In this document: positions 46,053 through 58,100 of the stretch, piece by piece
Layout of the letters: every line of letters begins with the position of its first letter
Position numbering within the stretch: position 1 is the first letter of the stretch
Assembly: GCF_040536835.1 (NCBI RefSeq)
Contig: NZ_CP159578.1
Location: 2,232,001 to 2,296,000 of the forward strand
DNA from: Salinicola endophyticus
GTDB lineage: Bacteria > Pseudomonadota > Gammaproteobacteria > Pseudomonadales > Halomonadaceae
Length of the DNA: 64,000 bases
Direction of reading: 5' to 3'
Program-made: the position numbers and the translations under genes
The notes under the pieces: generated by a model
The model's input: the letters and a program-made list of their open reading frames with translations, nothing else
Databases searched by the model: none
What the model was told of the DNA's origin: nothing

Positions 46053-46949
46053 ATGGCAGTTATCAATACCAACATCACCGCGCTGATCGGTCAGAACAAC
46101 CTGAACAAGTCGCAGAGCCAGCTCTCGACCGCCATGGAGCGTCTCTCCTCCGGCCTGCGTATCAACAGTGCCAAGGACGACGCCGCCGGCCAGGCCATCG
46201 CCAACCGCATGAGCAGCCAGATCACCGGTCTCAACCAGGCCAGCCGTAACGCCAACGACGGTATCTCGCTGTCGCAGACTGCCGAAGGCGCCCTGGACCA
46301 GGTCAACGACAACCTGCAGCGCATCCGTGAGCTGACCGTTCAGGCTCAGAACGGCACCAACAGCGCCGACGACATCGACTCCATCCAGAAGGAAGTCAAC
46401 CAGCGTCTGGAAGAGATCAACCGTGTCACCGAACAGACCACGTTCAACGGCACCAACGTCTTCAAGACCAGCACCAGCAACTCCTCGTTCAGCATCCAGG
46501 TCGGTGCGAACGATGGCGAAACCATCAACATCACCATCGGTGGGGCCAGCGCTTCCGGCACCTCGACCAACGCTGCCAGCGGCTGGAACATGTACTCCTC
46601 CACTGCGACTGCCGGCGCATCGGCTGCCAACGGCGGCACCCGCTCCGTCAGCGCCAGCGGCTTCGACGTGCTCGCCACCGACGCCCTCAAGGTCCTCGAC
46701 AACAAGCTCAACAACGTCGACACCGAGCGCAGCAACCTGGGTGCGGTCCAGAACCGTTTCGAAACCGCGATCGACAACATCACCACCACCTCGACCAACC
46801 TGTCGGCAGCCCGTTCGCGCATCGAAGATGCCGACTACGCCACCGAAGTGTCGAACATGACCCGCGCGCAGATCCTGCAGCAGGCTGGCACCTCGGTCCT
46901 GTCCCAGGCGAACCAGACCCCGCAGACAGTTCTCTCGCTGCTGCGTTAA
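46053..46949 (+). CDS. fliC: Flagellin FliC
   Basis: 298 residues, a short flagellin with intact D0/D1 ends ([21 protein letters not shown] at the start, [25 protein letters not shown] at the end). The variable centre is reduced to about residues 139-205 and is Ser/Thr-rich ([36 protein letters not shown]). Such patches are typical O-glycan acceptor sites. AAGGAA precedes the ATG. Flanked by a sigma28 promoter and an intrinsic terminator, so it is transcribed alone. The gene that follows is a large modification enzyme, which supports glycosylation of this flagellin. Confidence 0.97.
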
Positions 46950-46970: not shown

Positions 46971-46996
46971 AAGGCCGGCATCTTGCCGGCCTTTTT
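46971..46996 (+). terminator. Rho-independent terminator of fliC
   Basis: AAGGCCGGCA and TGCCGGCCTT form a 10-bp GC-rich stem with a three-base loop, ending in a run of five T. It lies 22 bases after the fliC stop. It also shows that the next gene cannot start before about 47000 as part of the fliC message. Confidence 0.92.
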
Positions 46997-47129
46997 CGTT
47001 GCCTATCCGCCACCCAGAAAGCCCGCGACCGAGAATGGCGCCGTCAAGGCCAACTATTCGCCGCTTCGCGCTTCTCGAGACATGGGAAGCTTGAAAGACT
47101 CCTCACCTCCTGTCGGAACATTGCTGCTC

Positions 47130-50100
47130 ATGAACCATAGCCAACACGTCCCCGCCCCACTGCAAAAGCGCTTCATGGACCTCTATCGGCAAGGTGACTA
47201 TCAGCACGCCAGGAAAGAAGCCGAGTCCTTGGCACAGCGCTACCCACAGGATGCCTTTTCCTGGAAAGCGTTGGGCAATAGCCAGCTGCAGACCGGCGAT
47301 GCCGCCGGTGCGCTCTCCTCGCTGGAGCGGGCCATGACGCTGACTCCGACGGACCCTCTGGTACTGACGGCGCTGTCGAAAGCGTACTTCAAGCAGGGGC
47401 AGAAGGAGCGCGCCTTCGAGCTGCAAACCCGCAGTCTGGAGATCGACGGTGACAGCGCCCAGGCTCATTTCAACATGGCCAACATGTGCTATGAGATCGG
47501 CGCCTACCCCCGCGCGGAAAAGCATCTGGCACAAGCCGAGCGGGCAGGACATCCGGAAGCGGAGATCCTGGCCATGCGCAGCATCCTGTTTTCACTGCAT
47601 TTCGAGTTCCAGAAGGGCCTGGAAGCGTTGGAGCGCCTACACACGCTCAAGCCGAAAGACCCCTCGGTGCTCAATACGCTCGGCAACTATCACAAGGATA
47701 TGACCGACTTCGCGGCGGCGGAGCGTTACTACGCCCAGGCGCTGCGACTGAGCCCACAGTACTACACGGCTTACTCCAACGGACTGCTGAACGACCACTA
47801 CAATCCCGCGGCCTCGGCCGAAAGCATTCTGCGCAAATCCAAGGCGTGGAAGGACCACTTCACGCCGCCACGACTATTGACGCACGATGCCAAGGATCGC
47901 ACCTCAGATCGTACGCTCAAGGTCGGACTGCTCTCGAGCAACCTCAGGGTTCACCCGGTAGGCTGGATGGTGAGCAGTGCTCTGGAGAATCTTGCCAGCG
48001 ATATCGAGCTCTACGCCTACACCGATAACGACGCTCACGATCCGATTGCCGAAAAAATCAAGCGACGCTGCCACTGGATACCTACCTATCATCTAAGCCA
48101 CCAGCAGCTCGCCGATAGAATTGTTGCCGACGATATCGATATCCTGATCGATCTGGCGGGTCACGGCGCCCAGAGCCGACTCCCGGTCGTCGACATGAAG
48201 CCGGCACCGATCATCATCAAATGGGTCGGCATGCAGATCAGCAGCATGGGCATGGCGGCGTTCGACTATTTCTTGAGCGACCCATATGAAACGCCGCCCG
48301 GGGTGGATCATCTCTATACCGAGAAGCTGATCCGCCTGCCCAATGACTACATCTGCTATACGCCGCCCGCCTATACCCCCGCGATCACGTCGTTGCCGGC
48401 CATCAGCAACGGTTACGTGACCTTCGGCTGCTTCAACAACCCAGCCAAGGTGAACGACGTGCTGCTGGCCGAGTGGGCCAAGCTGATGCACCAGGTGCCC
48501 GGCAGCCGCCTCTTCCTAAAAGGGGGGCAGTACACCAGCCCCGACGTGTGCCAGCGTATTCTGTCTACGCTTGAGCATCACGGCATCGAATCCGGGCGTG
48601 TCATGCTCGAAGGGCCCTCGGACCATGAAACGCTGCTCAAGAGCTACAACCGTGTCGATATTGCCCTGGATACCTGGCCCTACTCAGGAGGCTTGACGAC
48701 CTGTGAAGCGCTGCTGATGGGCGTTCCCGTAGTCACGCATGTCGGCCCGACCTTCGCCGGACGGCATAGCGCCACGCACTTGTCGAACACCGGCATGCCG
48801 GAACTGGTCACGGATAGCTGGGAAGCGTTCCGCGAGCGAGTGATCGAACTCGCGTCCGACCTGCCGAGCCTGGCAGTGATCCGCGCGGCGCTGAGAACCT
48901 ATCTCGAACACTCTCCGATCTGCGACGCGCCCAAGTTCGGTCGCCATCTGCGCAAGGCACTGAGAGCCGTCTGGCAGCGCTATTGCGAAAGCGCAGAGCC
49001 GGCCGCCCTCACCTTCGACGGCCATGGACGCGCTTATTTCGAGGATCGCGACGAGCCGGTGGAAGTGCCCCGTCCTCCGGCGCTCGAAACCGACGATGGC
49101 TTCGGCTGGCCGCTCGAAGAGCCGATCATCGCCATCGACAACGGTGGACAGCTACTGAACGATGAGAACGTCGAGAAGCTGCTGCGGGACGAGCGCCTCG
49201 AATTGATCGTGTTCGATCCTTCAAGGGACGCGGCCCATCATCCCATGAGCCGTGCCGAGCGCGTACATTACTATGCCGGCCATGGCCTGGGCACGGGCTC
49301 ACCGGCCACCCTGTTCACGCCAAGCCCCAATTCGCCGAGCGCACTGCCAGCGGATCGCCAGCATGAGCAGCGGCAGCCTCAGGTAGCGGCCGAACCCCAC
49401 GCTTTCGACACCCTTGCTCTGGACAGCATCGAAGGCCTGCCGGCTCTGGACTGGCTGGTGCTGGACGACACCAGCGATGCTGCCGACATTCTTAGCCATG
49501 GCAGTCAGTCGCTGGCCGCGGCGCTACTGATTCAGGTCAAGATCGCCTTCCAGCCGACCCACGAGCGCCAGCCCGATCTGGGCGAGGTTCAGCGCTGGGC
49601 CAAGGAGAATGGCTTCCGCCTCTACCACCTGCACGATCAGCACCATCGCAGCGCCCTGCCCATGGATGAGATCCATGCCGACGTGGCCGCCTCCGAGCTG
49701 TGGTCCGCCCAGGCGCTACTGCTACCCGACCAGACGCGCATGGCCAGCCTGAGCGATAGCCAGCGGATCAAGCTGGCTTTCCTCCTGCACGTCGTCTATG
49801 GATTCAAAGATGTGACCGGCAGCCTGTTGCATCAGTTGGATGCAGCGCTGGCCCGCCGCTATCTCGACAGATTCCTCTCCTCGGAGAGCGAACCGCTGGA
49901 GGCCTCGTCACAGAAATCGCTTGGTGAAACGACGCCACTCCAGACGGCGTCTACCAGGCCAGATGGCGTTCAGCTCGCCCCCCTGGAACGCCTAAGCCGC
50001 GCACTTGGCAAGCGCAAACTGTGCCTGATCGACACCGGCAACCAGGCCAATCACGGTATCATCAAGCGTGGCATGCACGGGATGTTCCGCACGCTGCAGG

Positions 50101-51875
50101 GTGCCGGCTGTCCGGTGGAGTGGGTAAATGCCGATAACATCGGCCCCAAGACCATACTCAAGCTGGCCACCTCTGCAGACCATGTCCTGTTGGGCGGCAA
50201 TCGCTACTTCGACTTTTCGCTCAATATCAGCGGCTATGGCAGTAGCAATGTCTTTCACAGTTATGGCCACCCCATCATCGGCGCGGTCAATGACCACCCT
50301 TATGCCGATTTCATGCTCGATAGGATGCGCCATGCCTCGCCGAGCGGACTATTTGTCGCGCGCGCCTCGCTGAGTAGCGAACTCGCTTTTGTCAGACCCG
50401 ATATCTCGTTCATATTCAGCCCGACAACGGAGTCGTCCCCCAAGGTGTGGGAAGGGGGTGACAGACCACATATAGAACGGGATATCGACATTCTGGTGCC
50501 GATGAATCTCAGCTACGCGCCGCGTGCTGATGTGCTATATAACGAACTGTTGGATAAAGCCACGAGTTATGGCGATGACTACGTCACGCTCGTGAATGAA
50601 GTGCTCGAGCAGTTCACCGACTTCTCACGCCCGCTGCTATCGATCTTTCGGGAAACCTACCAACGTATTTTCGGATACAAATGGCAAGTTTACTACCCTT
50701 GGTCGGAGGAAGACGAGCGCCTGCTGGGCCTGCTCAGCCTGCTCGACGATGTGAGCCGTGGACGCGCCAGGCTCAAGGCCATCGAAGTGCTGGCGCAGAT
50801 GCCATCTTCAGCCAACATTGTCGTGCTAGCGCCAGAGGTCGCCCGGCAAGTACTAGGAAGGTTTGTGGGTATCGACGCCATTCGCCACTGGCAGTTTATC
50901 GGCGAGAAAACGTTCGATGAGCTTCAGTCTCTGTATACACGGGCTCGCTATGTACTCAACGTCTCACCGACTTATCACGATTGGCTGCATGAGCGCATAA
51001 GACATGCGGCCATCTCGGGTTGCGCGGTTCTTTCCAACCTAACGCAACGCGCAGACCAGTTTTTCAATCAGGGCCAGGATATTCTCTTCTTCGAGCGCAC
51101 CTCTCAGGAGGCTATCTACTCGGAAGACCGAAGTCATAGCGAGTCATTGGGCTTCGCCGCGCGTGACAAGGTCATGAACCAGCTGCCCAGCGAAAAGGAA
51201 ACCTTCGCTAACGCCATCGATGCTTATGCCGATTATCTTGAGCGGTTCGACAACCAGTCGGCCGGCACTGGCGGCATGGATGACGTACAGCAGACCTTGG
51301 AGTTGCCCGACGCGCCCTTTATGAGCAGCGCAGAGAAGGGACTCTTCCGCGATGCGCTGAGGTCCGCGAGCAGCTACTTCGAATTTGGGTCGGGTGGCTC
51401 TACCGTCTGGGCCATCGAAAACGGCCTGGTAGTGGAAGGTGTCGAGAGTGATGGCAAGTGGATACATGCACTGAAAGCAAAACTCGGCGAGAAGTGCCGT
51501 TTGGCCTACATCGATATCGGCCCAACTGGCGCTTGGGGTTTCCCCACCTCGAATGCGGCGATCGCAAACTATGGCAACTATAGTCGCCACATCCTCGATT
51601 TTACCGCGACTTTCGATTTGACACTGATCGATGGCAGGTTCCGAGTTGCTTGTGTCGTGGCGACCGTGATTCACATCATGAAAACGGCCGACGATGTCAG
51701 CAAGCCCCGGATTTTCATCCACGACTTCTGGAATCGTCCCCACTATCACATTGTGCTCGACTATCTGCAGCCGGTACGACGGGTCGATACTGCGGGGCTC
51801 TTCAGCGTCAAGCCGAACCTCGCCCTCGATGATCTCGAGAAAAGGCTTGCCGAATACCTCAACGATCCTCGTTAA
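47130..51875 (+). CDS. Multidomain flagellin-modification candidate: TPR, GT41 (OGT-like), FkbM-like, GT-B-like and methyltransferase-like domains
   Basis: About 1,581 residues in one frame. Residues 1-235 are TPR repeats. Residues 260-620 are an OGT/SPINDLY-type GT41 domain (DLAGHGAQSRLPVVDMKPAP, FGCFNNPAKVND, LDTWPYSGGLTTCEALLMGVPVVT). Residues ~650-905 look like an FkbM methyltransferase that lost its KxDxxGAE core (LVLDDTSDAADIL instead). Residues ~960-1370 resemble a CgeB/GT-B glycosyltransferase (VLNVSPTYHDWLHERIRHAAISGCAVLSN, GQDILFF). Residues 1395-1581 look like a Rossmann methyltransferase (YFEFGSGGSTVWA, VEGVESDGKW). It lies directly after fliC, so flagellin is the likely substrate. 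The ATG at 47130 is uncertain; 47082 is possible. No strong Shine-Dalgarno or sigma28 promoter is seen in front. Confidence 0.82.
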   Translation: MNHSQHVPAPLQKRFMDLYRQGDYQHARKEAESLAQRYPQDAFSWKALGNSQLQTGDAAGALSSLERAMTLTPTDPLVLTALSKAYFKQGQKERAFELQTRSLEIDGDSAQAHFNMANMCYEIGAYPRAEKHLAQAERAGHPEAEILAMRSILFSLHFEFQKGLEALERLHTLKPKDPSVLNTLGNYHKDMTDFAAAERYYAQALRLSPQYYTAYSNGLLNDHYNPAASAESILRKSKAWKDHFTPPRLLTHDAKDRTSDRTLKVGLLSSNLRVHPVGWMVSSALENLASDIELYAYTDNDAHDPIAEKIKRRCHWIPTYHLSHQQLADRIVADDIDILIDLAGHGAQSRLPVVDMKPAPIIIKWVGMQISSMGMAAFDYFLSDPYETPPGVDHLYTEKLIRLPNDYICYTPPAYTPAITSLPAISNGYVTFGCFNNPAKVNDVLLAEWAKLMHQVPGSRLFLKGGQYTSPDVCQRILSTLEHHGIESGRVMLEGPSDHETLLKSYNRVDIALDTWPYSGGLTTCEALLMGVPVVTHVGPTFAGRHSATHLSNTGMPELVTDSWEAFRERVIELASDLPSLAVIRAALRTYLEHSPICDAPKFGRHLRKALRAVWQRYCESAEPAALTFDGHGRAYFEDRDEPVEVPRPPALETDDGFGWPLEEPIIAIDNGGQLLNDENVEKLLRDERLELIVFDPSRDAAHHPMSRAERVHYYAGHGLGTGSPATLFTPSPNSPSALPADRQHEQRQPQVAAEPHAFDTLALDSIEGLPALDWLVLDDTSDAADILSHGSQSLAAALLIQVKIAFQPTHERQPDLGEVQRWAKENGFRLYHLHDQHHRSALPMDEIHADVAASELWSAQALLLPDQTRMASLSDSQRIKLAFLLHVVYGFKDVTGSLLHQLDAALARRYLDRFLSSESEPLEASSQKSLGETTPLQTASTRPDGVQLAPLERLSRALGKRKLCLIDTGNQANHGIIKRGMHGMFRTLQGAGCPVEWVNADNIGPKTILKLATSADHVLLGGNRYFDFSLNISGYGSSNVFHSYGHPIIGAVNDHPYADFMLDRMRHASPSGLFVARASLSSELAFVRPDISFIFSPTTESSPKVWEGGDRPHIERDIDILVPMNLSYAPRADVLYNELLDKATSYGDDYVTLVNEVLEQFTDFSRPLLSIFRETYQRIFGYKWQVYYPWSEEDERLLGLLSLLDDVSRGRARLKAIEVLAQMPSSANIVVLAPEVARQVLGRFVGIDAIRHWQFIGEKTFDELQSLYTRARYVLNVSPTYHDWLHERIRHAAISGCAVLSNLTQRADQFFNQGQDILFFERTSQEAIYSEDRSHSESLGFAARDKVMNQLPSEKETFANAIDAYADYLERFDNQSAGTGGMDDVQQTLELPDAPFMSSAEKGLFRDALRSASSYFEFGSGGSTVWAIENGLVVEGVESDGKWIHALKAKLGEKCRLAYIDIGPTGAWGFPTSNAAIANYGNYSRHILDFTATFDLTLIDGRFRVACVVATVIHIMKTADDVSKPRIFIHDFWNRPHYHIVLDYLQPVRRVDTAGLFSVKPNLALDDLEKRLAEYLNDPR

Positions 51876-52011: not shown

Positions 52012-53343
52012 TCAAACAGCAAACAACCGCTGATACTCGTCGAAACGGGAGAGCCCAAGGGTCTCGAAGAACGTCATCGGCCAGCCGTAACAACTAGTGA
52101 AATAGCCATGGGGTAGCGCATTGGCAGCGGGCTTCGGTTCGATGTCTGTGTCGAGCATGAGTGCCAGCGCCTCGCGAGTATCGGGCTCGTAAACGGCATC
52201 GAGGCCGCTATAGATGGCCTTACCCAGCATGATGCTCGGCACCCCCATATAGGCCGCCTCGACACCCACCGTCGAGAAAAAGCACAGAACCTTGGCAGCA
52301 CCCTGCATGAGATCGTAAGAACTGACGACGGAATCGCTCTGAATGACATCGACATTGTCACCGGCCAGACCATGCCAGTAGTCGAAATCACGACGACAGA
52401 TACCCGCTTGATTGGGGTGGTTACGAATAACCAATTGGTAGCGAGACTGGTTGGCAGCCCAGCTTATCAGCCATGCAACGGCTTCACGCTGGGTCGCAAA
52501 AATAGTCGACAACTTTATTCTCGGATCTAGAGATGCATACTCGTCTTCGCTAGACACAAAATAGACGATGTACTCGCGACACCTGGCTGGCATCTCAGAA
52601 AACTTATCGGCAAACACATTGGCTCTTTGCTTGGCAAAAAAAGCCTCCGCCTTTTCCACCTTCCGTGGATCACTGGACGCTTCCCAAAAATCCTTGACTA
52701 CCGCAGACATAGCTCCAAAGTCATGTATACGACAAGGCTGAATCCTGAGTGCTGCCCCTGCATTCATTCTTTCATAATAGACAACCTGCTGTCCGATTCG
52801 CTCCAGCATCAATGTTTGTGGGTAAGTATTATATGAGCGCCCATTATAAATATAAACACAATCACCCGACTCCAGGCCAACCGACTGCACGCTGGTCTCA
52901 AAGTGATCTACGAAAAGTATCGCCTGAAAAAGATAAGACTCGACCTCTGACCAACAGCTGTCGATATCCAACGAGACACAACGGTAGCGCGAGATCAGGT
53001 TAGAGACGATGGCCACCCCAATATTGAGGTCTCGATAGGTGACGGCCCTCAAGGCTTCGATATCAGTCACCGGCCGCAGCAGCTCATCGACCAGCACCGA
53101 TATCTCCCTGGAAGACTCGGCAGACCTAGTTGTCGTTTGATAGTAGCCCTGATGATCTCCGAGGATTCGGGAGACAACTGACCGAATATCGGCGAGACGT
53201 TCAGCATCCCGCTCCCCCACAATGACCCACGGGACAACTTGGAAGCCACCTTGCACGCTGAGCCTATGCAGCATCTCCAGAAAAGTCCCGAAGACCTGGT
53301 AATTCCTCAGGTCGCTACAAAAAACAAAGGCTTTCCTCGCCAT
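52012..53343 (-). CDS. KpsC/KpsS-like polysaccharide glycosyltransferase
   Basis: 443 residues. The C-terminal half carries the capsule-synthesis (KpsC/LpsZ) type pattern: YQLVIRNHPNQAG, a DVIQSDSVVSSYDLMQGAAKVLCFFSTVGVEAAYMGVPSIMLGK segment with the donor-binding Gly and Glu, and a tail. The N-terminal half (KAFVFCSDLRNYQVFG) is a Rossmann-like start. These enzymes transfer sugars to polysaccharide or protein-linked acceptors. Base composition is clearly more AT-rich than the neighbours, suggesting acquired DNA. It starts three bases after the stop of the ATP-grasp/epimerase gene. It is the last gene of the operon. Confidence 0.7.
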   Translation of the reverse strand: MARKAFVFCSDLRNYQVFGTFLEMLHRLSVQGGFQVVPWVIVGERDAERLADIRSVVSRILGDHQGYYQTTTRSAESSREISVLVDELLRPVTDIEALRAVTYRDLNIGVAIVSNLISRYRCVSLDIDSCWSEVESYLFQAILFVDHFETSVQSVGLESGDCVYIYNGRSYNTYPQTLMLERIGQQVVYYERMNAGAALRIQPCRIHDFGAMSAVVKDFWEASSDPRKVEKAEAFFAKQRANVFADKFSEMPARCREYIVYFVSSEDEYASLDPRIKLSTIFATQREAVAWLISWAANQSRYQLVIRNHPNQAGICRRDFDYWHGLAGDNVDVIQSDSVVSSYDLMQGAAKVLCFFSTVGVEAAYMGVPSIMLGKAIYSGLDAVYEPDTREALALMLDTDIEPKPAANALPHGYFTSCYGWPMTFFETLGLSRFDEYQRLFAV

Positions 53344-53346
53344 GCG

Positions 53347-55299
53347 TTATTTCCTGAAGCTGTCAATGGTACTTTGCATATCGTGACGTGGATACCAGGT
53401 ATACTCTTGATGGGCTTTATGGCTGGAGATGATCAGGTCATCAGGCACACCCTCAGCATACGACGCCATGACGCGATAACTCGCCCCCAACCTCTCTACC
53501 GCGGCATCGAGAACCTCTCCTAGAGAAGGCGTGCTGCCGGGGCCTATATTGATGATGTCGAAGAAGCCATGCTGCGACTCGCGCTTTGTAAAATGAAGCA
53601 ACGCATCGACAGCGTCTCTATAGTCAATCTTACTGATCCGACGCGATAAGTGTCTTGCCGACACTTCACCGCCGCCCGCCAATGTCGACATCATGGATGA
53701 GTAAGCTTCCTGTTCAACTAGCGCATCCAGCGGCCCCATGACGGAAGAGAGCCGCAAGATCGTGAATCGAGTTTCCCGGGTCATCTGTGAAAGCGATTTC
53801 AAGTGATCTTCCACGAGCACTTTGGCTTGGGCGTAAGAGCTTTCCGGGCGTAGCAGAGACGCCTCAGACAACACGTCTTTCGAATTCCCGTAGACACTTT
53901 GAGAGGAGAGGAAGATGATCTTCGCAGGCGCCATGCACATGCAGGCCCGCAAGAATTCCATACTCGTCTGAATGGCGGCAAAATGATCTTCAGGCCCGTG
54001 GTGAGGCCTGGCAAAGGCGCCATGGAGCACTACATCGATACCGCGAATATCTGCCACTCCGGAGCGCAGCTCCTCAAAACAGTAAGCCTGTCTAATCCCC
54101 TGTCTTCCGTTACGGTGGCGGTCGACTGTATAGACTTCAAAGTCGGTGTCAGAGAGCAGGCGATCCAACAAGAGCCCCCCGAGCAATCCGGTACTACCAG
54201 AGAGCAACACCCTCCTCACCCCCGATACCTCAGCGCGATGCCCCGAGTCCGAGGCTGGCCAACGCGATGGGGGCAGATCGATCTTTTTACTCGCCACCTG
54301 CCTGACACCGGCATGTCTCGACGATAGACGAGGCTGCAAACATGGCTGCTTCATCAGCAATCCAATGACCACATACTCGACCTCATTGAACCCGAGCTTG
54401 GCTCTGAGCCCAGTAATACCGGTAAAGCGCGGATTGATCTCGAAGACTTTAAAACCTTCGTCCGTCATGCGTCCTTGTACATTGATAGGTCCAAAAGCAC
54501 TCCATCGAAGCATCGATCGGCAAAAGGCCTCGATAAAGTGATTGAGCGGTGCAAGATCGATTGGAACGATCTCGATCGGCACGCCGTTGACCAGACGATT
54601 AGTCGTGGCACAGCAGGCCCGCAGCTTTGAACCTTGATCGAAAATCAACTGTAAGGAGATCTCGCTGACTTGTCGATTCTCTCCACGTGACAAGCTGCTC
54701 CTGTACTCAACAGAGAGATCGTCGCCACTAGCCGGCATGGCGATTTCTTGATAGATATGGCTTTCCCCGTCATCGACCGCATTCAAACCCTGCCGATTCG
54801 CAATGACGCTAATGCTTTTAGATGCGTACCCTGATCGCGGCTTTTTGATCAGTGGAAAGATGTCCTCGTCAGCGTCAAGCAACTCTTGATGAGTATAACT
54901 TTTCACAAAAAAAGGCGCAGCTTCTTGAAACGTCTCCGTATAGCTGTATTTATCCCTACACATCGCAATCAGTGCTTCCGGCGCGGCCAGCACTCCGATA
55001 CCGTGCGCCCCGAGTTTTTCTCTATTTTTTGCCAGTATATACGCCTCATCGTCGTGTCCCGGGATGAGTAACGTGATATTTTCTTCTGTCGCGACCTCGA
55101 TCAATCTCTCTATATAGCCGCCGTCATGGTAACCAGGAATCAGCCGGCTGCGATCGCACTCCGTCGCGCCGAAGGCCGAGGGAGTGTTCCCCAAACCGAC
55201 TGTCTGAACGGCACCCGGCTTGAACAGCTTGCATGAGTCGATCACCGATTGCCCGACACCACTACCAATTGAACAGATGCCGATCACAAGCTTATCCAT
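53347..55299 (-). CDS. ATP-grasp enzyme fused to an NAD-dependent epimerase/dehydratase
   Basis: About 650 residues with two enzyme domains. Residues 1 to about 345 are ATP-grasp of the carbamoyl-phosphate-synthase-like type: LVIGICSIGSGVGQSV preATP fold, FPLIKKPRSGYASKSI nucleotide loop, FGPINVQGRMTDEGFKVFEINPRFTG metal-binding end. Residues ~385-645 are a short-chain epimerase/dehydratase: LLSGSTGLLGG NAD motif, FLSSQSVYGN and the catalytic SYAQAK. The ATP-grasp half could ligate an amino acid or acyl carboxylate to an amino sugar, and the reductase half could modify a sugar nucleotide; both are inference. ATG 55299 follows GAGG. It overlaps the aminotransferase gene by eight bases. Confidence 0.78.
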   Translation of the reverse strand: MDKLVIGICSIGSGVGQSVIDSCKLFKPGAVQTVGLGNTPSAFGATECDRSRLIPGYHDGGYIERLIEVATEENITLLIPGHDDEAYILAKNREKLGAHGIGVLAAPEALIAMCRDKYSYTETFQEAAPFFVKSYTHQELLDADEDIFPLIKKPRSGYASKSISVIANRQGLNAVDDGESHIYQEIAMPASGDDLSVEYRSSLSRGENRQVSEISLQLIFDQGSKLRACCATTNRLVNGVPIEIVPIDLAPLNHFIEAFCRSMLRWSAFGPINVQGRMTDEGFKVFEINPRFTGITGLRAKLGFNEVEYVVIGLLMKQPCLQPRLSSRHAGVRQVASKKIDLPPSRWPASDSGHRAEVSGVRRVLLSGSTGLLGGLLLDRLLSDTDFEVYTVDRHRNGRQGIRQAYCFEELRSGVADIRGIDVVLHGAFARPHHGPEDHFAAIQTSMEFLRACMCMAPAKIIFLSSQSVYGNSKDVLSEASLLRPESSYAQAKVLVEDHLKSLSQMTRETRFTILRLSSVMGPLDALVEQEAYSSMMSTLAGGGEVSARHLSRRISKIDYRDAVDALLHFTKRESQHGFFDIINIGPGSTPSLGEVLDAAVERLGASYRVMASYAEGVPDDLIISSHKAHQEYTWYPRHDMQSTIDSFRK

Positions 55300-56422
55300 A
55301 CGACACCTCACCCCGAGACGCTCTGACAATCTGGCAAATGAATTCGACCTGTTCTTCAGAAAGAGAAGCTGACATTGGCAAACAAATCACTTCATCCGCA
55401 GCGCTGCGTGCGTGACTCAAGGATGACGGCGTCAGGCTTTCTCCCCCGCGATACACCGAGTGGTCACTAACGAGCGGATAAAAGTAGCGCCGCGCATAAA
55501 TATCCTGTGCTCGCAAGCGCTCGTACAGGTCATCTCTACTCAATCCGTAGCCGCGACCGACACGCACAGGAAAATAGGCATAGTTGGAGACGACCTGCCG
55601 GTGAAAATCCGGCAGCTGGATGCCGTCGACACCTTTCAAGCGATGTCTATATAAGTGGTCCACTTCCGCACGACGGCGTATCGCACCATCGATATGCTTC
55701 AGCTGCAGCAGACCAAAGGCCGCGTTGATCTCGCTCATCTTGCCATTGATACCCGATGCCACCACCGTCGTCTCGTTGACGATGCCGAAATTCTTGAGGT
55801 TATCGATATGGCGCTTGGTCTTGGCGTCGGGGCAAACAATGGCGCCACCTTCGAAGGTGTTGAAGACCTTGGTGGCGTGGAAGCTGATTGCACTCAGGTC
55901 GCCATGACGCAGAATGCTGCCCCCTTTGTCCTCGACGCCGAAGGCGTGAGCGGCGTCGTAGATCACCTTGAGGTTGTAGGTATCGGCAATCTCCTGGATC
56001 GCTGCGACATCGCAGGGGTTGCCGTAACAGTGCACGGGCATGATCGCGGTCGTCCGCGGCGTGATAGCCGCCTCGATCTTCCGGGGGTCGAGATTGAAGG
56101 TCTGCGGATCGATATCGACGAAGACCGGCGTGATGCCGTTCCAGAGCAGAGCATGCCCGGTGGCCACGAACGAAAACGGCGTAGTGATCACCTCGCCGCT
56201 GATTCTGAGCGCCTGCAACGCGGTCAGCAGCGCAATGGTGCCGTTGTTGAAGAGCGCGATCTCCGGTACGCCCAGGTAATCACGGAGCGCTGCTTCAAGC
56301 TGCTGGTGCATCGGCCCGTTGTTGGTCAGCTTCTTGCTCGCCCATATCTGTTCGAGATAGGGGATGAACTCGTCAAGCGGTGGCAGATAGGGCTCGGTGA
56401 CATAGATGGGCTTGTCGTTCAT
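55292..56422 (-). CDS. vioA: DegT/DnrJ/EryC1-family sugar aminotransferase, VioA-like
   Basis: 376 residues of the PLP-dependent sugar aminotransferases. The N-terminus KPIYVTEPYLPPLDEFIPYLEQIWASKKLTNNGP closely resembles VioA, which makes dTDP-4-amino-4,6-dideoxy-D-glucose (viosamine). PLP-binding Lys is K185 in SFHATKVFNTFEGG, with YDAAHAFGV upstream. Substrate choice between 4-keto and 3-keto sugars cannot be proven by eye, but a dTDP-4-keto-6-deoxyglucose substrate fits rmlA and rmlB next to it. In Pseudomonas syringae VioA makes the modified viosamine of the flagellin glycan. It is 70 bases after rmlA. Confidence 0.85.
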   Translation of the reverse strand: MNDKPIYVTEPYLPPLDEFIPYLEQIWASKKLTNNGPMHQQLEAALRDYLGVPEIALFNNGTIALLTALQALRISGEVITTPFSFVATGHALLWNGITPVFVDIDPQTFNLDPRKIEAAITPRTTAIMPVHCYGNPCDVAAIQEIADTYNLKVIYDAAHAFGVEDKGGSILRHGDLSAISFHATKVFNTFEGGAIVCPDAKTKRHIDNLKNFGIVNETTVVASGINGKMSEINAAFGLLQLKHIDGAIRRRAEVDHLYRHRLKGVDGIQLPDFHRQVVSNYAYFPVRVGRGYGLSRDDLYERLRAQDIYARRYFYPLVSDHSVYRGGESLTPSSLSHARSAADEVICLPMSASLSEEQVEFICQIVRASRGEVSYG

Positions 56423-56492
56423 GAATTACCTTTTCTCGGATACCCACCGGCCCCACTGGTATCGTGAGCTGATTGGCCCTTGTTGATCGTGG

Positions 56493-57374
56493 TTATGAGG
56501 ACTCTTCGAGAAACTCGAGCAGATAACGCCCATAACCATTCTTGGCGAAGACTTTGGCCGCCGCGGCCAGCTCGCTTTCACTCAGCCACCCTTGGCGCCA
56601 GGCGATCTCCTCCAGGCAAGCGATCTTGTACCCTTGGCGTTTCTCTATGGTCTCGACGAACTGGGCGGCTTCCAGCAGGCTTTCGTGGGTACCGGTATCG
56701 AGCCAGGCAAAGCCGCGCCCTAGCAGTTGAACCTGCAAGTCACCTCGCTCGAGATAGGCGCGATTGACATCGGTAATTTCCAACTCGCCTCGACTCGAAG
56801 GCTTCAGATGCTTGGCGATCTCGATAACGTCGTTGTCGTAGAAGTAGAGCCCGGTGACCGCATAATGGGACCGCGGTTGGCTCGGCTTTTCCTCGAGTGA
56901 CAGTACGCGACGCTCGGCATCGAACTCGACCACGCCGAAACGCTCCGGATCCTTGACCTGGTAGCCGAACACTGTAGCGCCAGAGGCACATGCCATGGCT
57001 CTTCTGAGCTTGGGACTGAACGCCTGCCCGTAGAAGATGTTGTCGCCGAGCACCAGGCAGACGTTGTCCTGACCGATGAAGGACTCGCCGATCAAAAACG
57101 CCTGTGCCAAACCCTCAGGTCGCGGTTGCACGGCGTATTGCAAATCGATACCGAAGCGCGCGCCGTCGCCCAGCAGACGCTGGAAGTTGTCTCGATCTTC
57201 GGGGGTGGTAATGATCAGAATGTCGCGTATCCCCGCCAGCATGAGCACCGACAGCGGATAGTAGATCATCGGCTTGTCGTAGATCGGTAGTAGCTGCTTG
57301 GAGACACCCATGGTGATCGGGTGCAGACGGCTACCGGCACCGCCAGCCAGCACGATACCCTTGTAGCGCGTCAT
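56493..57374 (-). CDS. rmlA: Glucose-1-phosphate thymidylyltransferase RmlA
   Basis: 293 residues, normal RmlA length. The nucleotide-binding signature is [16 protein letters not shown] with [29 protein letters not shown] and [19 protein letters not shown] are the catalytic and allosteric regions. It makes dTDP-glucose from dTTP and glucose-1-phosphate, the first step to dTDP-4-amino sugars and dTDP-rhamnose. It starts within the stop of the truncated rmlB (ATGA). Confidence 0.95.
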
Positions 57375-57910
57375 GCCGGCGTCCCCAGTCGAGACAAGTC
57401 CAGCCCGTCGGCCCCCGCCTTGCTGGCCGAATAGGGGGAGTTGGGAGCGTAGGGCGAGTTCTCATCGAAGCGCGCCGCGCGATCTGCGCCGAGATCGCCG
57501 AACACTTCATCGGTGGAGACATGGTGAAAGCGAAACGCCTCACGGCGGGCCGGGGTGAGTCCACGCCAGTGGCTTCGCGTCACCTCCAGCAGCGTGGCCG
57601 TACCGAGGACGTTGTGATGCACGAACGAGAGCGGATCGTCGATGGAGCGGTCGACATGCGTCTCCGCAGCCAGATGCATGACGGCGTCAGGCGAATGGCG
57701 CCCGAAGACCTGCTCCAGGGCCGCCCGATCATTGATATCGATCGGCTCCATCCAGTAGCGGCCGGCATAGGCGTCAACCAGACTGTTATCCGGGTGCGAG
57801 GCATAGCCGAGCTTGTCGATATTGACGACGCTATGCTCGGTAGCCGTCAGCAGGTGTTGAACCAGAGCTCTGCCGATGAAACCCGCACCGCCCGTGACCA
57901 CTATTTTCAT
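57371..57910 (-). pseudogene. rmlB: Truncated dTDP-glucose 4,6-dehydratase (rmlB), N-terminal half only
   Basis: 179 codons against the usual ~350. The NAD site GGAGFIGRAL, the MHLAAETHVDRSIDDP stretch, STDEVFGDLG and the catalytic YSASKAGAD are all intact. The next residues, [11 protein letters not shown] and a stop, no longer match RmlB, and the stop overlaps the rmlA start, so the sugar-binding C-terminal half is deleted rather than shifted into another frame. Most likely inactive alone. A full rmlB must then be elsewhere in the genome if dTDP-4-keto-6-deoxyglucose is made. Confidence 0.85.
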
Positions 57911-58100
57911 GCCGCACCCGTCGAGAGTTCTCCGCTGACTGCCAGCATGCCCGCATCGGCAGCGAACGTTACGGTGAATAAGTGCCTCCAGGCGCTCCAG
58001 TTCGTCGCTTATCGGACGACGGAACGCCACGTTCGACACGCCCCTTCAGAGACGAGCGGCCAGTCAGCGAGCGGCGAGACGACTGGCGTGTCTTACCGAC

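Follow-up and report, generated by a model that had tools for sequence, protein, structure and literature searches.

What a single protein with five kinds of domain does beside a flagellin gene is the question raised by this locus of the salt-loving bacterium Salinicola endophyticus. In the window, by which we mean the whole 64,000-nucleotide stretch of DNA that was analyzed, an earlier note had described one large multidomain protein next to fliC. This observation was confirmed, and the domain types that it had read from motifs (TPR, GT41, FkbM-like, GT-B and methyltransferase) were supported by Pfam, profile and fold comparison. The features discussed below are:

46053..46949, + strand: fliC, flagellin, 298 residues, with a Ser/Thr-rich variable part
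46971..46997, + strand: terminator-like hairpin with a T run, located after fliC and ahead of the large gene, read by eye and by folding
47130..51875, + strand: TPR-GT41-FkbM-like-GT-B-methyltransferase gene, 1,581 residues
47166..47780, + strand: TPR region, residues 13–217; flagellin binding likely, by analogy with FlmG
47877..49007, + strand: GT41 catalytic domain, residues 250–626; active site SPINDLY-like or intermediate
49050..49865, + strand: constant FkbM-like domain, residues 641–912, lacking the FkbM signature motifs
49866..49946, + strand: junction; relatives exchange the tail on its 3' side
49947..51269, + strand: GT-B (GT4-like) cassette, residues 940–1380
51291..51869, + strand: C-terminal class I methyltransferase of the 3cvo type, residues 1388–1580
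52012..58039, − strand: convergent sugar cluster, comprising a PF05159-like transferase, an ATP-grasp and epimerase fusion, a DegT aminotransferase, rmlA and a short rmlB

Ser and Thr make up 24 of the 72 residues at positions 140–211 of FliC, versus 44 of 226 elsewhere. Because the terminator-like hairpin precedes the large gene, it is uncertain whether that gene is co-expressed with fliC. A scan for promoter and terminator consensus sequences did not return this hairpin and gave nothing useful for the large gene, and sigma-28-like consensus matches in the window were not above chance (13, shuffle mean 10.4).

The earlier note had inferred the connection to flagellin from location; it now rests on 80 named loci (the best 80 of 175) and 151 genomes of the family. 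When the core of the protein (residues 1–912) was used as the query against the family genomes, at a threshold of our own choosing (E ≤ 1e-60), it was found in 50 of the 151, all of which have flagellin. A flagellin match was present in 138 genomes, 137 of them over the cut-off. The phylogenetic co-occurrence that the earlier note had suggested looking for was thus observed, with the core in 50 of 138 flagellin-bearing genomes and in none of the 13 without a flagellin match (Fisher p = 0.004, counting related genomes as independent). Its absence from the other 88 flagellated genomes shows that the gene is dispensable for flagella. Among the matches listed, flagellin lay upstream on the same strand in 43 of the 50 core genomes; by tblastn, it was directly upstream in six of the remaining seven (a partial match in G007) and ≈3.2 kb away in G008, making 49 of 50 within ≈2 kb.

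A collection of genomes from 84,980 species was also scanned with two peptide patterns, and the best 80 of 175 confirmed stretches were kept. In 77 of these 80 loci, a same-strand flagellin gene lay upstream, with a largest gap of ≈1.7 kb (L089). Flagellin was a divergent neighbor in two Marinobacterium loci (L111 and L115), and one locus (L112) ended at a contig edge. The loci came from Halomonadaceae, Pseudomonas, Azotobacter, Bordetella, Achromobacter, Microbulbifer, Alcanivorax relatives, Halieaceae, Chromatiaceae, Marinobacter and Marinobacterium, among others. In Alloalcanivorax profundimaris (L129:8022-14348), two TPR-GT41-FkbM-like matches occur in tandem. As a contrast set, 369 genomes of the class were scored with two candidates per genome; 46 besides its own had a TPR-GT41 match, none extending beyond residue 635. 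Fourteen of the 46 had no flagellin match, and for 13 the place of flagellin was not among the matches listed; where it was (19 genomes), two lay within 2 kb and two at ≈7 and ≈11 kb. We consider it very improbable that the protein regulates cytosolic proteins in general, by O-GlcNAc or O-fucose, and lies beside fliC by chance: although the solved glycosyltransferases nearest to it by sequence are SPINDLY and OGT, flagellin is adjacent in 79 of the 80 loci (best 80 of 175), in several families, and the gene is missing from all 13 flagellin-less relatives.

In a flagellin O-glycosyltransferase, the reading that we prefer, the GT41 domain would act first. Pfam assigned it to PF13844 at 109.8 bits, compared with a curated cut-off of 25. 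Active-site residues were paired with those of SPINDLY by hand counting on an alignment (K440 with K665, H275 with H495, K464 with K689, S505 with A731, Y518 with Y744, E526 with E752) and surveyed in 120 rows, comprising the window protein and 119 of 120 listed homologues (the best 120 of 580; P0107 was left out). H275, K440, Y518 and E526 were invariant in all 120 rows, while position 464 was K in 103, R in 16 and I in one, and position 505 was A in 46, T in 39, S in 27 and C in 8. K689, A731 and Y744 are the three residues that separate SPINDLY from OGT, according to the part of the account that we consulted (PMC10027727). Two of their equivalents in the window protein are SPINDLY-like (K464 and Y518), the third is a small residue (S505, not the A of SPINDLY), and none is OGT-like. 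The window protein thus resembles plant SPINDLY, as far as described in the sections consulted (PMC10027727, PMC9715652), in its TPR-GT41 order and in the equivalents of K665, K689, Y744 and E752. It differs in its fusion partners and in the SPINDLY contacts to fucose and ribose, S496, T747 and T748, for which all 120 rows have P276, G521 and L522. The GT41 assignment of the earlier note stands, but its wording as OGT-type is better replaced by SPINDLY-like or intermediate; PMC10027727 mentions an intermediate clan into which this family may fall.

Fold-search rows for the first structure model covered mainly the C-terminal methyltransferase, so the FkbM-like domain was judged by sequence profile. 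A profile of 18 such domains matched one built from six FkbM domains, taken from the tails of relatives, with an hhalign probability of 99.96 and E = 8.1e-39. PF05050 was matched by all six tail domains versus only three of the 18 constant ones, weakly (best E = 0.00042), and the window's own domain had no Pfam match at E ≤ 1. The constant domain is thus homologous to FkbM by profile, without the signature motifs or a match at the Pfam cut-off: D-W-L-K-I-D-I-Q-G-G-E has become D-W-L-V/I-L-D-D-x-x-D, and the glycine-rich loop is altered. Conservation of the domain in 118 of the 120 homologues (best 120 of 580), together with the acidic residues kept at the two positions aligned with the SAM motif (of 120 rows, 117 have D and three have E at position 670, and 119 have D at 696), might indicate a methyltransferase that is still active with unusual motifs. 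Given the replaced motif and loop, the poor Pfam matches and the occurrence of genuine FkbM copies in some tails, this is quite unlikely. We infer that the constant domain is a scaffold rather than an enzyme, which leaves three plausible enzymes where the earlier note had counted four enzyme-like modules; the domain types themselves hold. In four of the 50 family genomes with the core (G007, G031, G090 and G109), the match ends at residues 637–650, indicating that some members do without the FkbM-like domain; in G147 the match ends at 772. One homologue without the domain, P0006, has TPR-GT41 fused to GT-B and methyltransferase, and Kushneria sinocarnis (L135) has TPR-GT41 with neither the FkbM-like domain nor a recognized tail.

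The first structure model, covering residues 619–1581, had a pLDDT of 73.8 and was weak over the GT-B region, where MAFFT also aligned only four of eight GT-B-bearing rows. When residues 940–1380 were folded again alone and compared, a GT-B fold was found, in the region where the earlier note had placed it (960–1370). The cassette had no PDB match by sequence. Queried as a stand-alone protein against the 7,999 candidates with the most words in common, residues 946–1380 gave no relative at E ≤ 0.001, although relatives of this kind may still exist; with whole-protein length allowed, five proteins were found, one of them the near-identical P0001. The C-terminal domain has both a class I SAM fold and the glycine-rich motif.

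Behind the core, relatives carry different tails (methyltransferase here denotes the 3cvo type, detected by a locally built profile). Among the best 120 of 580 homologues, the core was followed directly by the methyltransferase in 77, by a cassette and the methyltransferase in 19, and by another tail without the methyltransferase in 19; three were core only, one lacked the FkbM-like domain (P0006) and one had a triple GT41 (P0107). The corresponding figures for the best 80 of 175 loci were 32 with another tail, 19 with the methyltransferase, 16 with the core only and 11 with cassette and methyltransferase, plus one broken frame (L058) and one without the FkbM-like domain (L135). Pfam matches on 43 tails included GT2 (16), Sulfotransfer_3 (12), Sulfotransfer_1 (11), FkbM (10), GT56 (5), Sulfotransfer_4 (4) and PF13524 (3), among others. 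Apart from one glycerophosphotransferase-like domain, the families found were all glycosyl-, methyl- or sulfotransferases; the tail of L078 had no match. Tail labels were read singly for 38 of the 43, from Pfam for L057, from local profiles for L056, and after L059 for L060–L062.

On a core tree of 78 loci (L058 and L135 left out; quick search, LG+G4), 24 tail states required at least 49 changes, compared with a mean of 53.7 for shuffled labels, of which 1 in 200 was as low; these states depend on Pfam and local-profile detection, and some are perhaps split too finely. Reducing the states to three (no tail, methyltransferase alone, or anything else) lowered the requirement to 28 changes. Tail type thus tracks core ancestry only weakly.

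The junction was examined by blastn in 13 pairs of loci, 11 of which had different tails, with distances measured by hand. In all 11, homology stopped no more than ≈140 bases from the end of the FkbM-like domain. It resumed behind the tail in seven (L080 against L079, L087, L083 and L075; L082/L070; L109/L106; L068/L121), with 87% identity on both sides of the tail in L109/L106. In the other four (L086/L131, L075/L086, L096/L097 and L071/L065) it did not resume; L131 and L075 hold less than 0.9 kb after the gene. Both same-tail pairs (L060/L062 and L106/L107) aligned straight through. Loci close to the window's own strain behave similarly. In 50-residue blocks against the window protein, L058 had 84–98% identity over residues 601–900 and 40–74% thereafter; L057 fell from 82–96% to 20–66%, with no match from residue 1401 on; and L056 had 68–96% except for a dip to 52% at 901–950. 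In Salinicola tamaricis (L058, also L044), two frameshifts, at about residues 76 and 1153, interrupt the homologous gene, and the adjoining PF05159-like gene matches in three pieces, reflecting a pseudogene or sequencing error.

The loose tie between tail and core phylogeny would also be expected if the core glycosylated flagellin while the tail modules modified other surface glycans or rode along passively. We regard this as unlikely, since resumption of homology behind the tail in seven of 11 pairs points to replacement within one frame of a flagellin-linked gene, and the tail families are the transferases named above. In addition, some tail-less cores look as if the step were supplied in trans. 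Homologues of a 186-residue hexapeptide acyltransferase were found near 11 of the 16 tail-less cores versus two of the 64 other loci (L120 and L135), and those of a 275-residue ORF near 10 of 16 versus one of 64 (L135). Both mostly lay directly downstream (for example, the pair at L067:10856-12237). Pfam named the hexapeptide acyltransferase in all three scanned and had no match for the 275-residue ORF in any of three; a GRTGTT stretch in the latter presumably resembles sulfotransferase P-loops. Judging from these sequences, enzymes fused as a tail in some strains may stand alone in others.

We lean towards a polymorphic flagellar-glycan system, in which a constant core for docking and the first sugar would receive different finishing tails by recombination at a fixed junction, like the C-termini of polymorphic toxins, so that flagellar glycans could be altered quickly, with phages that bind flagella as one possible selective force. 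Fusions of GT41 and methyltransferase near fliC have been published for Enterobacteriaceae (PMC4875605); on the constant FkbM-like domain and the tail exchange, we found no open-licence paper for this protein family.

The convergent cluster at 52012..58039 could possibly supply the sugar donor. Its rmlA and short rmlB were named from sequence rather than from a family scan. RmlB is usually about 355 residues long, and the rmlB-like ORF (57371-58039, −) is shorter, at 222. The fusion of ATP-grasp (carbamoyl-phosphate-synthase-like) and NAD-dependent epimerase (53347-55329, −) is possibly an amino-sugar acylation enzyme. Near the 80 cores (best 80 of 175), homologues were found of the PF05159-like gene in two cases, the ATP-grasp fusion in one, DegT in 10, rmlA in five and rmlB-like genes in nine. 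Both loci with the PF05159-like gene, L056 and L058, carry a GT-B cassette. Two further loci have the cassette: L065 lacks the gene, and L057 is cut off by a contig edge. This co-occurrence gives a hint of donor supply, no more. By annotation, the cluster resembles the Dickeya flagellin island, for which the part consulted lists transaminase, carbamoyl-phosphate-synthase-like and oxidoreductase genes (PMC6637903). A profile search for gmd gave nothing over the cut-off in the Salinicola genome, which speaks against GDP-fucose made through Gmd and leaves a donor pathway by that route unsupported; further matches to the gmd profile lie elsewhere in the genome.

Taken together, we think it likely that 47130..51875 encodes a cytoplasmic flagellin O-glycosyltransferase of this Salinicola-like strain. 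By analogy with FlmG, the TPRs would hold newly made FliC; GT41 chemistry suggests that this domain would place the first sugar on Ser or Thr of the FliC variable region. The FkbM-like domain would join core and tail as a constant scaffold, the GT-B cassette would attach a second sugar, and the C-terminal methyltransferase would O-methylate the glycan. Building and capping of the glycan on one bound FliC is plausible. The proposed order of steps follows precedents in Clostridioides difficile GT2 and Dickeya dadantii. What the computation itself establishes is the order and folds of the domains, a core that stays largely constant, its linkage to flagellin genes and absence from the flagellin-less relatives examined, and recurrent tail replacement at a single junction.

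The earlier note had held that known flagellin glycosyltransferases are usually single-domain, which overlooks several systems (the sources cited here were seen in part, and the comparisons are limited to those parts). Like fliC-linked enzymes of the flagellin-island (FGI) type, the window protein is encoded beside fliC. Enterobacterial islands carry SPINDLY-type GT41 proteins in the fliC region, all but eight with an AdoMet methyltransferase domain (PMC4875605, De Maayer and Cowan 2016), and by description are alike in these three respects; they come from different taxa, and the part of that account consulted mentions no constant FkbM-like domain and no exchange of tails at a single junction. 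In Dickeya dadantii, the O-GlcNAc-transferase-like gene Dda3937_03424 adjoins fliC, together with transaminase, carbamoyl-phosphate-synthase-like, oxidoreductase and methyltransferase genes; by description, the second transferase is a separate gene rather than fused. Mutants in two glycosyltransferase genes had FliC masses of 28,890 and 31,034 Da, versus 32,170 Da for wild type, with unchanged motility (PMC6637903); motility may therefore be a weak readout of such modification. Caulobacter FlmG binds flagellin through its TPR N-terminus and transfers sugar through its GT-B C-terminus (PMC7591256), the same order of TPR and GT-B-type GT41 as read here from sequence; unlike the window protein, it has 596 residues, only these two domains and a pseudaminic acid donor. 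The C. difficile type B GT2 attaches rhamnoses and has been proposed to methylate these as well (PMC5207246). Like the enzyme predicted here, it unites extension of a flagellin glycan with a methyltransferase domain on a single chain, but its transferase is PF00535, and TPR and GT41 are not mentioned in the part consulted. Listeria GmaR is a flagellin glycosyltransferase with TPRs and further domains (PMC9638930), its extra part being an antirepressor rather than glycan enzymes. Fgt1/VioT (PMC3927599) and the Dickeya zeae islands (PMC7575072) may, by description, be relatives in function.

If this reading is true, a single gene would determine, in each strain, both the sites and the kind of flagellar decoration, and a natural collection of many tails joined to the same core would already exist. 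Two questions would become testable: how a protein glycosyltransferase passes the glycan, as it grows, to a module fused with it, and how the flagellar surface can vary when flagellin itself is conserved. The variety of sugar-adding, methylating and sulfating tails may let bacteria alter their flagellar coat quickly.
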